Assembly (NCBI GenBank): GCA_030272585.1
Contig: BSYQ01000001.1
Location: 4,154,001 to 4,218,000, forward strand
Direction: 5' to 3'
Source: Bryopsis sp. KO-2023
Taxonomy: Eukaryota > Chlorophyta > Ulvophyceae > Bryopsidales > Bryopsidaceae
Length of the DNA: 64,000 nucleotides
The translations under genes and the position numbers were made by a program. Of the stretch, positions 22,539 to 61,929 are shown one piece after another (the first letter of the stretch is position 1; each line of letters begins with the position of its first letter). Below the pieces are notes generated by a model. The model was not told where the DNA came from. It saw only the letters and a program-made list of their open reading frames with translations, and searched no databases.

Positions 22539-24509
22539 ATGGGCAACAATGTATCAAACTTAAACGCTGCTGCGATCAGCCCGGTGGTGGCGGTCGACGT
22601 GGGAACTCTCAACAAGAGCCTTCTCACTGAGGAGGTGCGTGTGGTTTTCGTCCGTGTGTGTTGGAAAACGCTTCTAAAAAACCTCGCGTAGTATGAGGCC
22701 TCAATCGAACTTATCATGATCTTCTGCAGCAGAAAAGGAACCCCCCCTGCTTGATTTGTGTAAGGATCAGGAAATTCACCCCCTTACCCTATTGGATCTT
22801 CGATATTTCAAGTTATTTCAATACATACATTACCATTGGGAAGATACATATATCTGCATATATATATTACATATTTTTGGGTGCATGGTTGTCCATGTGC
22901 TGTTTCCAGCAAGAGAAGACAGTCCATTATTTTGCTGAAAGGGTTTTTTGCTTGCTGCGGTCAGGTGACCGATGACCTCCCGAAAAGCTTCGTGGGGGAG
23001 GATGACGAGGCCGGCTGGCATGATCTCCATATGGACATCATCATGCGGATCACTCAAGCAGGGGATTCGCATCAAAGCGTCGGTGTGCTGCGATTGCTCA
23101 ATCGACACTGGTGCCACAGCGTCAATCAAGACATCACAAGCCTCAGAATTTGCAGCCGGAAAGCTCACGAGGCGAAAGTCCGGGTTCGGGATGCGATCAA
23201 AATCGTGGAGGAGAAGTTCAGAGCCATCCAGCACCTCAAATTTTCCAACGTCAGCAGCAAGTTTTGGCCGGACGTGTTGGTCGAAGCAAGCCTGTCGCAG
23301 TTGATGTCGCTGGATCTGTCCAGAACCAAGATCAAGGATGTTTCGCTCATCGGTTTTTCGCAACTGACCAAACTGAAGTGCCTGAATTTGGGGAGGACCA
23401 CCATCGGTGATGCTGGAATGAAGCATCTCTCGACTTTGACCGATCTGGAGGCCTTGGAGCTTCGTCGAACCAATGTGGGGGATGCCGGACTTTCGCATTT
23501 GAAGGGCCTGCCCAACCTTCAAACATTGGGGTTGTACAAGACAAAGGTCACCAATGCTGGTATTCCTCATCTGCTCCCCCATGTCAAGCTCCAGTGCTTG
23601 AACCTGGGGGTAACATTGATCGACGATTCTGGAGCTGTGCATCTGTCCAGTCTGGTGAACCTTGCCACGCTTGATCTCCAAAAGGTTCGGGTGGGGGACT
23701 CCTGTCTGGGGTGGGTCTGGCTGGTGAACCTCAAAAATCTGACATCTTTGAACGTGAGCGGCACCAAACTTCGAGATTTCGGGATGCCCCATCTGGAAGA
23801 GCTGACCGACCTTTCGACTTTGATGCTGAGAAACACCAAAGTGGGCAATGCTGGGCTTCGATCAATCGGGCACCTGACTCGCCTCACGCACCTGGACCTG
23901 AGCAGAACTGCCGTGACGGCTGGATTTGGGCAGGCCCTGTCGTTTCTGACCGCTCTCACAGCTTTGCACATATCGAGGACCCCTGCCGAAGACCAGGATT
24001 TCCAGGTCATTGCCCAATTCCATAATTTGACATGCCTGGCGGCCGGTAGGACCAAGATGAAGAACTCGAGCACGGCCCATCTGCAAGGTCTGACCAGGTT
24101 GACTCATTTGGACTTGTCACGGTCCTGCATCGATAACGATGGAATTGCGATGCTGTCGACTTTAACCAATTTGCAGGAGTTGAACCTCAGTCACACCCAC
24201 ATGAAGAACGCGGGGTTGAACGCTCTGTCGGTTCTTACCAACATGGACTGTTTGGCGCTGAGCGGGCTGCACATTACCGATCATGGGTTGGAGGCTCTTC
24301 GGAAAATGGTGAAAATCGAGACGTTGATTTTGGAATCGACCTATGTGACGGACTTGGCCGTCATGGAATTGTTGACCTTGACCAGGCTGTCCCGATTAGA
24401 CGTTCGCCACACCAAAATTACGGAGAGCGGCCTCCAACGATTGTCAAAAATGATGGACATCGAGGAGGTCAAGCACAGTCTCGAAAAGGCTGGAGAGCCT
24501 CAAAACTGA
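22539..24509 (+). CDS. F-box-like leucine-rich-repeat protein with myristoylation signal
   Basis: Two exons, 22539-22634 and 22965-24509, give 546 aa in phase. The start MGNNVSNLN fits the N-myristoylation pattern (Gly2, Ser6), which also argues for this ATG. Residues about 48-95 (WHDLHMDIIMRI through RHWCHSV) look like an F-box-type helical segment. From about residue 130 to the end there are some 16 leucine-rich repeats of 24 residues, with the pattern LxxLxLxxTxIxDxGLxHL. Such proteins usually recruit substrates to SCF ubiquitin ligases. A plasma-membrane-tethered version is an inference. The second exon is unusually long for this window. Reading the intron from 22836 also stays open, so an alternative N-terminus is possible. 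Confidence 0.85.
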
Positions 24510-27361: not shown

Positions 27362-29545
27362 ATGGTGTGGTGGAATAACAATGGATTCGCGATATTTCTA
27401 CTCTTCTGCGTAAGTAAGGCAGGGAGGGAGCGCTGGTTTCGTTGATTCATTGTGACATGAAGGGATGATGATTCTTTTTTCCTGCAACCAACCACTCTGA
27501 TTGAGATTCCTGATGGCAGGGTATGATGGCCAGCTGTCGAGCAGCTCCGATAGTTGGTAAACTGGAGTCGGTGGAGGAAGGCAATTATGGTAAGCACTCT
27601 AAAATGATCTGAGCAACTGGAATGAGCAGAAATTGACATCGAACTTAACATACCTCTTCCAACTGAACGTACACCTGTGTTTCTGGGCAACCCGGTGTCT
27701 GTTTAGTGATTCATCTGGTGGTCTTTTGCTGTAGTATGGTTGCCTCCCTCGAATGAGTGCCCTTGCAAGCATAAAGGCAAGGTTCCACCTCCCCCTCCCA
27801 GGCATCCCCCCCACCCACCAAATCCCCCTTATCCACCCCAGAGCTCTTCACCAGCAGCACCATCACCTCCATTGTATACCCCCAGGCCATCGAAACCCAC
27901 TGAACATCCTCCCGTCCCCCTGCCATGTCCCTGCGCTCACAAGCGGTTCCCGTATGCTGTTCCAACCTCAAGTCCAAAATCAAAGCACAAGCCGATGCCG
28001 TACACGGTGCCATCCCCCAGTCCGAAGGCCAAGCACAAGCCCATGCCGTACCCGGTGCCATCCCCAAGTCCGAAGGCGAAGCACAAGCCTATGCCGTACC
28101 CAGTTCCATCCCCAAGTCCAAAGGCGAAGCACAAGCCCATGCCGTACCCAGTGCCATCCCCAAGTCCAAAGGCGAAACACAAGCCCATGCCGTACCCAGT
28201 TCCATCCCCCAGTCCGAAGGCGAAGCACAAGCCCATGCCATACCCAGTGCCATCTCCCAGTCCAAAGGCGAAACACAAGCCCATGCCATACCCGGTGCCA
28301 TCCCCCAGTCCGAAGGCGAAGCACAAGCCCATGCCGTACCCAGTTCCATCCCCAAGTCCAAAGGCGAAGCACAAGCCCATGCCGTACCCAGTTCCATCCC
28401 CAAGTCCGAAGGCGAAGCACAAGCCCATGCCATACCCAGTTCCATCTCCCAGTCCAAAGGCGAAACACAAGCCCATGCCATACCCAGTGCCATCTCCTAG
28501 TCCAAAGGCGAAGCACAAGCCCATGCCATACCCAGTGCCATCTCCTAGTCCAAAGGCGAAGCACAAGCCCATGCCGTATCCACTTCCATCCCCCAGTCCA
28601 AGGCCAAAACATTCACCATTCCCCTACACCGTACCTTCCCCTGCTCCAAGGCAAAAGCCTTGCGAGGTGCCGTATCCATCTCCAACAACGAAGCCAACAC
28701 ACTCCCCCTCCCCAGTGCCATACGATGTGCCAACGCCAACTCCGGTCCAAAAACCAGCTCCATGCCGCTTCCCATACCCTGTACCATCTGTTGGTCCTAA
28801 GCCCAAGCGTCGTGGATTTCGGTACGCCGTACCTAAGGCAGGAAGAGGAAGAACCTTTGCTCCATATCCATACCCTGTTCCAAGGAGGGAGCCATGTGTC
28901 TGCCCTGAGCCAGCCCCCGAACCGGAGCCAACCCCACATCCAGAGCCATACATCAAACCGGAGGTAACTCCACACCCAAAGCCACTCACCAAACCAACAG
29001 CAGAGCCTTGCCCTCCAGAGGACCACCCGTCAACACCATCTCCATCTCTTCCTGCTATAGGTATTGGGGACAGATTTGACCAGTGAAAATGATGAATTAC
29101 ATATCCTGCTTCCGGAAAGATCGTTTTGACTTATATTTGCTGGTGATGACACATTTCAAAATGCCTTTTTTGTTGCATTATGCTTTGTTGTGTTGGCTCT
29201 GGGTGTATGTGGGGAGCTAGAATTGCAAGGCTCATGCACTAGTTTGGTCAAAAGAGGTTTGTGGTTACAGGGAAGTCATTCGGCAGTCCATCAGCATTGC
29301 CATGGGGTAGCTCCACTCACGTTCATGGCTGGGGCGTTGTTGGAAGGAAGCATGTTAGCAGGAAGGAGGAGGTCTCTGACCGTCACGCCTCGACTTCAAG
29401 CTCGAAGAGCATTGGTTGGAGGGATGGGGGTTCGGACAAGGGGGATTCGAGCGGGGGACAGACTGGGGAAGATAAAGGCAAGGGAACTATTTTTGGTTAC
29501 GGGTCGAAGAGATCACGTAAGCTGGGACCGCTCAGCACTTCGTAA
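27362..29545 (+). CDS. Secreted Pro-rich tandem-repeat (hydroxyproline-rich-like) glycoprotein
   Basis: Four exons are proposed: 27362-27409, 27520-27589, 27735-29060 and 29271-29545, in phase, 572 aa. Exons 1-2 encode a signal peptide (MVWWNNNGFAIFLLFCGMMA). Exon 3 is about 40% Pro. It opens with CPCKHKGK and Pro runs, then has 13 copies of a 16-residue unit PKAKHKPMPYPVPSPS. Degenerate PxP repeats and an acidic EPEPEP stretch follow. The last exon is Gly/Ser/Lys-rich. Without its donor at 29061, exon 3 reads on only to TGA at 29084-29086. The composition is like cell-wall extensins or algal hydroxyproline-rich glycoproteins; the Lys/His/Tyr in each unit could allow cross-linking. The exact 3' end is uncertain. 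Confidence 0.8.
27985..28610 (+). repeat. 48-bp tandem repeat, 13 copies, inside the Pro-rich gene
   Basis: Units of 48 bp are nearly identical, with third-position changes (for example ccggtgcca versus ccagttcca). Each encodes PKAKHKPMPYPVPSPS, with edge copies changed (PKSKHKPMPYTV first, PLPSPSPRPKH last). The array has no stop codons in any frame on either strand over most of its length. Confidence 0.97.
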
Positions 29546-38332: not shown

Positions 38333-39593
38333 ATGATGAAGGTGTTGTTCGTTTCGCTGGTGGCGGCGTTGTGCTTGGTGGTGGTGACTGGTAGGTTTTC
38401 ACACGCGATCCGATGCGTGCTGGCGGCGACTCTTGCCTGAAGTTGAACGTTGCTTTTCGCTGTTCGATGATTCTTGTTTTGATTATTTGGTAGGCAATGC
38501 CTCGTATTATGTGGTTGAAGAGCCCACCTACTATTACTATGACAGCGTTTACGCGGTGAGTTGCTTTGAATCCTTCAAATCATCTTTTGCGGGCAGCAAT
38601 CCTTTGTCGAGCACCGCCCGGTTGCTTCTGCTTATCCACTGATGGCGCTTTTGTGTGCTTCTGTTTTGCAGCAACGTGAGTATCCTCTGCAACATTTATG
38701 GATTTGTGCGATCTCAGTGAAGGTTTCTTTTCTCGAGGACCTTTGATCGCCGATCAGATTTGAGTGCTGCCGCCTTTCAGATCAATCTGCATATCCATTG
38801 CACACCACCTTCATGCTGTCATGAGATCCACCCTCTTCCTGACCTTTGCTGTAGGCTGTAGTCGATTAGGGTGGAAATTTTAAATTGATTTGGTCACTTT
38901 TACACTCTCTTTTTTGGTGGGGAAAATGCATGGATTTGATATCATTTGAATGAATCTGTGTTTGGGGATGCAGCTTCGTCTGGCTTGGTGAAGTTGCCTG
39001 ACGCTCCTCCTGCTCCAGCTCCCTCTCCTCCTCCTCCTGCAGAAGCAGAGGAAGAGGAGGAGGAGGAAGAAGAGGAGGAGGTCTCAGACTCTCCTGTTAT
39101 TACTGGAGTGAGTAGTTCCATCCTTTCCATGAGATCCTAGAAATAATTTAATCATGGTGGCTGAGTTCGTGAGGAGGAAGAGGAAGCTGAATTTTCACCT
39201 GCACGACTTCTCCTCAAGTGTTTATTAGGTTCAGCATGGTGACATGTTTTTCCAACCTGAAAAATCTCAACCATGCAATTTCTGCAAAGGAGCAAGGTCC
39301 CCTTTTGGGTTGCAGAGGGAAAACTCGCTGATATTTTTTTGGAGGAGGAAGAGGATATTCTGATTGGGGTTTTGGCATCACCCTCCGTCGTTTTTGTGTC
39401 GTTGATCTTTGCTGAAAAAAAGATGCTGGTGGTTTAGGGCATCGGCACTGGTTTCTTCCGCCAATTCTTCCCTCGTGCTGCACCTGCCTTGGCACGCGGA
39501 TCTGAAATTGGATCTCAGGCTGTCCAGTCGGAGGCATTCGCGACGATTGCCCAAGGGGCTGTTGATGCCGCTCTGGGTGCTATTACCGGATAG
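38333..39593 (+). CDS. Secreted acidic Pro/Glu-rich small protein with 4-nt micro-exon
   Basis: Exons 38333-38390, 38494-38555, 38672-38675, 38974-39107 and 39438-39593 give 137 aa. A signal peptide (MMKVLFVSLVAALCLVVVTG) is followed by a Tyr cluster (EEPTYYYYDSVYA), a Pro stretch (PDAPPAPAPSPPPPAEA), eleven Glu in a row, and an Ala/Gly-rich C-terminus (FFRQFFPRAAPALARG). Exon 2 ends in phase 0 and exon 4 starts in phase 1, so direct joining hits a stop within six codons. The 4-nt exon CAAC, flanked by TTTTGCAG and GTGAGT, restores the frame. No family is recognised; it is probably exported or vacuolar. Confidence 0.75.
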
Positions 39594-60700: not shown

Positions 60701-61929
60701 CACTCCCCCCGCGAGAGACCCAGTGCTGCCCTTCGCGACGAACCCCATCAAACCGCCCAAAGCCAGGAGGACCGCATAAGGGAAAGTGAAGCAAAAGTCG
60801 TACATTTTTTCTCTCTCTCGGTCGCTCGCACCCTTGCTACCGCTGTCTCGCGCTCCAAAGACGTCTTTGTTTTGACCGCTCGCGTTGATGCTGACAAAAT
60901 ATCTGGCAGCTGGGGAACACGTGGTTTGCCACAGGACCGACTGGGAGGATTGCGAGATGAGCACATCCGTCTGGGTTATGACAAGAATAAATGTTCCAAA
61001 ATCCGTTCTGTTATTTGTCTTTTGCTTTAATTAGGCCAGCAGCAGGAATGGGTTACTTTGAACCACAAAGTAGTGTTTTCCCCTGAGCGAAGGACTGTCA
61101 GAGTTTGAATTTACAACAGCACCTTTGGAACGCCAGAAGCAATCTCATTACTGCCATAGCGACCTACTCAAGTAAAAGACTCCTAAGATTCCTAATTTCT
61201 TTACTGCAACTCGTTTCAGGCCTGGCAAGAATGACTGCCAACGAGCAACAGCTGAAGACATTCACATACGGCACGGTGTCACATATGCCCCCCGAGCTTC
61301 TGAAGGACGGCTTGTCCACTCCAGCAATGGACGTTTACTCCTACGGAATGCTGCTTTGGGAGATGCTCTCAGAAGGCTTGCCATACCCCAACAAAAACCA
61401 TGGAGAGATTCTCCTGGGTGTGGTTCGAGGTCAAAGGCCAAAAATACCCGATAACTTTCCGCCAGGTTATGCTGGTTTGATCGAAGACTGCTGGCAACAG
61501 GACTTCTCAAGAAGGCCAGATCTTACAGATGTGGTGAAGAGACTCAAAACGCTCTTTGTGGAGTGCAGCGACACTCAACAGAATCTGGCAAGGCTGCAAA
61601 CCAGCATGATGACCAGAACTCTGGATGCAGAAAGGCTGGCAGCGGCCCAAGCCGCTGCAGCAGCCAAACAAAAAGAATTGAACACCGCCGCAGCCCTGGA
61701 TGGTGCTGCAGGCGAGGAGCAGGTGATGGTGACTTTTCAGTCCAACGCTTTTCCTGGTTTTCCTGGTGCTCTGACGCACAAGGATGACAAGGATATTCCT
61801 GATCTGTGGTCCACTGCTGGAAGCTTGCCAGACACAGAGGATTTTTGTCAGGAATCACAGCTAACCATGACCCCAGTCAAAACAGAGATGGACACAATCA
61901 TGGAATCAGACAAGCACGATGAGGAGTGA
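57788..61929 (+). CDS. Receptor-type TKL protein kinase
   Basis: Six exons keep phase and give 774 aa: 57788-58712, 58844-59002, 59133-59251, 59480-59689, 60004-60205 and 61220-61929. Signal peptide (MNPNSLCILFTTLALALAP), ectodomain of about 240 residues with Cys pairs, one transmembrane helix (AVAVGAGIAIIALIVAVV), then RRRQ and the kinase domain. Kinase motifs: VGRGGFGRVYKG, VAIK, HPNIVQTF, GSLHQAIKDKVF, HGDLKAANVLL (HGD where HRD is usual), SDFGLA, MPPE and DVYSYGMLLWEML. The kinase has an acidic insert (DDDYNEDVF) between the N-lobe strands. The tail is Ala-rich, then acidic. The ligand is unknown. The first intron has a GC donor, and an intron after SDFG carries a nested gene. Confidence 0.92.
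60446..60805 (-). CDS. FAX/TMEM14-family membrane protein, nested in the kinase intron
   Basis: An intronless frame of 119 aa starts MYDFCFTFPYAVLLALGGLM. It has the family's GFVAKGSTGSLAGGVGSAML motif and four hydrophobic helices, with KLMPSGLVFFMSGGM near the end. Plant members (FAX5-7) begin almost the same way, which supports Met 60805. The frame is open up to 60964 and could add a 53-residue N-terminus (MLISQSSQSV). Family members move fatty acids or haem precursors across organelle or ER membranes. The whole gene lies antisense inside the 60206-61219 intron of the kinase. Confidence 0.83.
   Translation of the reverse strand: MYDFCFTFPYAVLLALGGLMGFVAKGSTGSLAGGVGSAMLLSLCASISLRYYHQGKLCKAATFFSLLIAVGLTWVMYKRYSVSGKLMPSGLVFFMSGGMSLFYVWNLFLGPHPPVKSSP

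Follow-up and report, generated by a model that had tools for sequence, protein, structure and literature searches.

The gene and its surroundings

The gene examined here lies on the forward strand of the 64-kb window, i.e., the whole stretch of DNA that was analyzed, and encodes a small acidic protein that is predicted to be secreted. Exon 1 (38333..38390, +) contains the start codon and a sequence that resembles a signal peptide by eye (MMKVLFVSLVAALCLVVVT), and it ends in phase 1. It is followed by a putative exon 2 of doubtful reality (38494..38555, +; 62 nt, NASYYVVEEPTYYYYDSVYA) and by the candidate micro-exon CAAC (38672..38675, +). Exon 4 (38974..39107, +) encodes a proline-rich and then an acidic stretch and is frame-compatible with CAAC upstream or with exon 1 directly. 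Exon 5 (39438..39593, +) ends with the stop codon TAG. The introns of this five-piece model measure 103, 116, 298, and 330 nt; the first three (38391-38493, 38556-38671, and 38676-38973) flank exon 2 and CAAC. A shorter form of exon 4 (38994..39107, +) would use an acceptor ending at 38993 and could follow exon 2 in frame with CAAC left out.

A search of the 91-Mb genome yielded no paralogues of the gene. Only weak matches were obtained in Pfam (below the cut-off) and PDB, to acidic ribosomal proteins and further sequences of low complexity. Rfam (gathering threshold) and a tRNA scan of the 64-kb window gave no match. Three further features of the window were recognized by eye. A proline-rich open frame at 27710-29086 (+) with many tandem copies of PYPVPSPSPKAKHKPM resembles a cell-wall protein, and 61087-61929 (+) contains the terminal part of a gene for a tyrosine-kinase-like protein kinase. 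A leucine-rich-repeat-like protein of 581 amino acids is encoded in a single open frame at 22764-24509 (+); the conserved genes of this genome are intron-rich.

Reading frames, splice sites, and coding signal

In the earlier note, CAAC had been proposed as a coding exon that repairs the frame between exons 2 and 4. The underlying observations were confirmed: exon 2 ends in phase 0 (GCG, 38555), exon 4 contributes two codon bases from 38974 onward, and a join of the two without CAAC reads LRLAW followed by a stop, i.e., within six codons. The flanks of CAAC are indeed splice-like, with TTCTGTTTTGCAG / tgtgtgcttctgttttgcag upstream and GTGAGT (gtgagtat) downstream. The repair holds between exon 2 and the acceptor before 38974, but it is not needed for an open frame. 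With exon 1 ending in phase 1 and two codon bases at the start of exon 4, these two exons can be joined directly and in frame; the resulting 348 nt are open to the same stop and read MMKVLFVSLVAALCLVVVTASSGLVKLPD.... Exon 2 and CAAC together comprise 62 + 4 = 66 nt. A join of exon 2 to 38994 (acceptor 38993) is also in frame to the same stop and yields 390 nt. An intact frame depends on CAAC only where exon 2 is spliced to the acceptor before 38974. Two other frame fixes were discarded. A donor located 4 nt further on (38560, TGA|gttgct) would correct the frame precisely, but its score is −4.7 bits, and a 34-nt exon at 38672-38705 would be frame-neutral, but its donor GTGCGA reaches 0.8 bit.

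The earlier note had weighed a single join, that of exon 2 with exon 4, and had also pointed out the total coding length of 414 nt. The sum is correct (58 + 62 + 4 + 134 + 156 nt, with the sole stop at the end), but it is not independent evidence, since the direct join of exons 1 and 4, the 38993 acceptor, and a better-scoring 3′ end had been overlooked.

A splice model was derived from the genome itself (91.09 Mb in 28 contigs; CCCTAAA repeats were present at five of the eight contig starts read). Reference proteins were aligned with genomic DNA using a spliced dynamic-programming aligner that also allowed GC donors. From 59 predicted introns in seven conserved genes, 51 were kept as the training set. 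The genes encode V-ATPase B and SecY, both located in the window, and GcvP, three Clp-type proteins, and p97, located elsewhere; we take the SecY gene to be a nuclear gene of the plastid kind. The eight introns dropped (three from SecY, three from one Clp gene, and two from another) showed weak similarity, an odd acceptor, or a length of 36-59 nt, and none of them was 400 nt or longer. The training introns are all of the GT-AG type and 91-395 nt long (median 220 nt), a range that includes every intron of the five-piece model. A second gene for peptidase M1 provided seven further introns with a maximum of 277 nt, a predicted intron of 33 nt being excluded. Apart from these seven, none of the 63 introns measured reached 400 nt (maximum 395 nt; 95% upper bound 4.6%), with first introns under-represented among them. 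The shortest of the internal exons in four well-aligned genes was 56 nt (n = 30); two predicted exons of 30 and 37 nt, located in a poorly conserved part of SecY, were excluded from the set.

Compared with the 51 training introns, the putative exon 2 has an acceptor of 11.6 bits (84th percentile) and a donor of 7.05 bits (41st percentile). CAAC scored 8.9 bits for the acceptor (65th percentile) and 6.75 bits for the donor (33rd percentile); its splice sites are ordinary to good and lie in the range of real exons of this genome. The acceptors of exon 4 (4.6 bits, 18th percentile) and of its shorter form (3.2 bits, 12th percentile) score lower. Judged by sequence only, CAAC with its 4 nt and its GT-AG introns on both sides (...GCAG / GTGAGT) falls into the size class of plant micro-exons.

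The coding scores of exon 1 (10.4 bits over 19 codons), exon 4 (29.1 bits over 44 codons), and exon 5 (26.7 bits over 51 codons) are positive. For the 20 codons of exon 2, the score was 1.5 bits. Of 294 real 20-codon windows, only 2% were as low, and 16% of the 3276 open intron windows (7054 in total) matched or exceeded this value. With synonymous choice alone, exon 2 was not unusual (17% of real windows equally low). The weak coding signal is a hint against the reality of exon 2 and not a proof, since a tyrosine-rich secreted protein may have an unusual composition.

Micro-exons elsewhere in the genome and in plants

The VPS55 orthologue of this genome (L043, contig C1, 2027866-2030982) appears to contain an even smaller exon. 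Its exon 1 (bases 779-800 of L043) encodes MAVHDPR plus one base. A single T (base 917) is located between TTTTACAG and GTAAGC and is followed by the exon starting GCGACTGCTACTTTC; the introns that flank the T measure 116 and 395 nt. With the T, a full-length open protein is obtained (MAVHDPRVRLLLSTMFVASIVLQVM...), whereas the frame runs into a stop without it. The T looks like a conserved 1-nt micro-exon and, compared by description, fits the 1-nt VPS55 micro-exon of land plants and Zygnema (PMC8831610; PMC11096116). It would represent a homology-backed micro-exon in the same genome as CAAC. Together with the CCCTAAA repeats at contig starts and the SecY gene, this exon suggests that the genome belongs to a streptophyte alga or plant. 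The 1-nt exon of VPS55 indicates that machinery for the splicing of very small exons is likely present, although such exons are not common in the genes examined. The constitutive 1-nt exon described for APC11 of Arabidopsis (PMC4674806) occurs in land plants; the APC11 match found here consists of one open frame for residues 3-84, which leaves no exon boundary in that part. For peptidase M1, micro-exons of 5 and 12 nt are described in land plants and Zygnema (PMC11096116). For the two copies present in this genome, the alignments cover residues 1-543 of the E. coli reference and residues 9-760, respectively, and no micro-exon was predicted there.

Coding exons of 4 nt are an established kind in plants. 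Among the coding micro-exons of 1-15 nt described in PMC8831610, which form 45 conserved clusters, cluster 5 is a 4-nt exon in phase 2 of RECQ3, and a 4-nt micro-exon of the rice gene LOC_Os02g54020 was confirmed by RT-PCR. The earlier note's view of 4 nt as close to the limit of the spliceosome is outdated in view of the constitutive 1-nt exon and the conserved 4-nt coding exons published. CAAC resembles the plant micro-exons of PMC8831610 in its size, its GT-AG introns on both sides, and its GTGAGT donor, and its omission would likewise break the frame of the proposed protein. In contrast to them, the frame is kept if CAAC and the neighboring exon 2 are both omitted, and whereas the plant exons are described with RNA-seq or RT-PCR support and in clusters conserved across species, CAAC is known from genomic DNA. 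With the 1-nt exons of APC11 (PMC4674806) and VPS55 (PMC8831610), it shares a size far below the usual minimum and a position between ordinary introns, but it differs from them in phase, gene, and support. Since the sites of CAAC are in the range of real ones and VPS55 has an apparent 1-nt exon, a 4-nt exon is possible in this genome.

Weighing of the gene structures

The structures were compared in a gene-structure model that combines the site matrices, codon usage (3008 codons), and the lengths of introns and exons; the fraction of internal exons of up to 30 nt is its free parameter. In the plants covered by PMC8831610, micro-exons of up to 15 nt number 105-454 per species and occur in 0.6%-2.6% of expressed genes, and fractions of up to 1% were accordingly judged realistic. 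In this range, the direct join of exons 1 and 4 was the top class, with posteriors of 0.64-0.83 for the fitted intron lengths and 0.81-0.90 for a wider spread of intron lengths. Structures with the micro-exon obtained 0.75, 0.50, 0.25, 0.09, and 0.03 (fitted) or 0.53, 0.26, 0.11, 0.035, and 0.012 (wider) at fractions of 10%, 3%, 1%, 0.3%, and 0.1%, respectively. With the fitted lengths, the micro-exon and the direct join were about equal at 3% (0.50 vs. 0.43), and the micro-exon was leading at 10%. The posteriors did not change when the stop was allowed to vary.

Frames, site scores, and in-frame alternatives can be read from the DNA directly, and from them we infer the form used by the cell. 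The main mRNA probably, if not by a wide measure of confidence, joins exons 1 and 4 directly and lacks both exon 2 and CAAC. Exon 1 (to 38390) would be spliced to exon 4 (from 38974) by the removal of one 583-nt intron, giving a product with ...VVVTASSGLVKLPD... at the junction. CAAC would then be an exon-like pair of splice sites within the first intron of a gene for a small secreted protein. Exon 2 and CAAC would be located outside the main coding sequence and, as they comprise 66 nt together, could at most serve as an optional in-frame insertion. In shuffled versions of the 583-nt intron, an insertion of any one or two exons with at least the gain of exon 2 plus CAAC was found in 46 of 400 cases. 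An in-frame insertion of this kind was obtained in 111 of 600 concatenated intron interiors and in 307 of 600 genomic segments, the latter including real exons. Several observations speak against the direct join: the 583-nt intron exceeds all introns measured, though few of these were first introns; the acceptor of exon 2 is among the better ones; a site pair like that of CAAC has a low chance of occurring if exon 2 is granted; VPS55 points to the splicing of a 1-nt exon in the same genome; and the micro-exon scores above the direct join at a fraction of 10% and, with the fitted lengths, slightly so at 3%.

It is unlikely, judging from these data, that the main form contains CAAC as a genuine coding micro-exon of 4 nt, which would restore the frame between exons 2 and 4 and give a protein of 137 amino acids. 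The flanking introns would be recognized by intron definition and probably removed in succession. The scores of both CAAC sites, which are like those of real sites, and the observed range of intron lengths, within which all introns of the model fall, are in accordance with such an exon. So is the VPS55 micro-exon, whose first flanking intron likewise measures 116 nt. In a scan of 368 kb, which comprised both strands of the window and of 12 further 10-kb stretches and used a matrix for the intron side built from 14 introns, CAAC was the sole pair of sites 1-30 nt apart with both sites this good, with the thresholds set post hoc to its own scores; by summed score and with the 51-intron matrix, it was less rare. 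Of 3000 dinucleotide shuffles of the 418-nt intron between exons 2 and 4, 39 contained a frame-restoring pair of up to 30 nt with an equal or better sum. Among 3000 random genomic 418-mers, 63 had such a pair, and among 3000 sequences concatenated from the interiors of real introns, for which only 51 sequences were reused, none had one. From these counts, the chance of such a pair is about 1%-2% if exon 2 is granted. When the frame condition was dropped, 149 of 3000 shuffles and 105 of 3000 concatenations contained a pair. With exon 2 taken as given and a fraction of 1%, the micro-exon is favored over other frame fixes by 2.5:1 with the fitted lengths (0.251/0.101) and 1.3:1 with the wider spread (0.109/0.083). 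At 0.3%, however, it loses to them (0.092/0.122 and 0.035/0.090, respectively), as it does below this fraction, and its posterior is 0.01-0.25 over fractions of 0.1%-1%. The weak coding signal of exon 2, the open frame achieved without CAAC, the equally good pairs in shuffled sequence, and the lack of a match in the paralogue search of the genome also argue against it. Altogether, the micro-exon is plausible but unproven, and CAAC appears more likely dispensable than constitutive.

It is quite unlikely that the gene model differs elsewhere, i.e., at the 3′ end, at the start, or by an optional 66-nt pair, in which case the frame argument could not assign a role to CAAC. Within the gene, the lowest donor and acceptor scores are those of the intron 39108-39437 (3.3 and 1.3 bits), and in the structure scoring, an alternative 3′ end (39318-39428 plus 39519-39593) lies 0.8-0.9 bit above 39438-39593, but the positive coding scores of exons 1, 4, and 5 are at odds with a different model. 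A real exon 2 joined to 38994 without any micro-exon (...DSVYALPDAPP...) is very unlikely. This join is the best member of the class in which exon 2 is kept and the frame fixed otherwise (posterior 0.035-0.13 over the settings tried), but its acceptor is weak, its 438-nt intron is longer than all introns measured, and SSGLVK would be lost. Pseudo-exons and optional cassettes with good-looking sites occur inside introns. Exon 2 and CAAC resemble them in their good-looking intronic sites and in the 66 nt that keep the frame when skipped, and nothing tested distinguishes such elements from a real exon pair in this case. As improbable as the join of exon 2 to 38994 is a coordinated 66-nt in-frame cassette in the secreted acidic protein, formed by lineage-specific exons of 62 and 4 nt that are always used together, the 4-nt exon making its neighbor frame-neutral.

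If CAAC is a true exon, a gene without recognized relatives is added to those with a 4-nt coding exon, which suggests that tiny exons can arise as frame-fixers of a neighboring exon. If it is not real, frame repair alone would be weak evidence for a micro-exon, and alternative joins should be listed first. The firmer result on micro-exon splicing for this lineage is the apparent 1-nt exon of VPS55 in the same genome.
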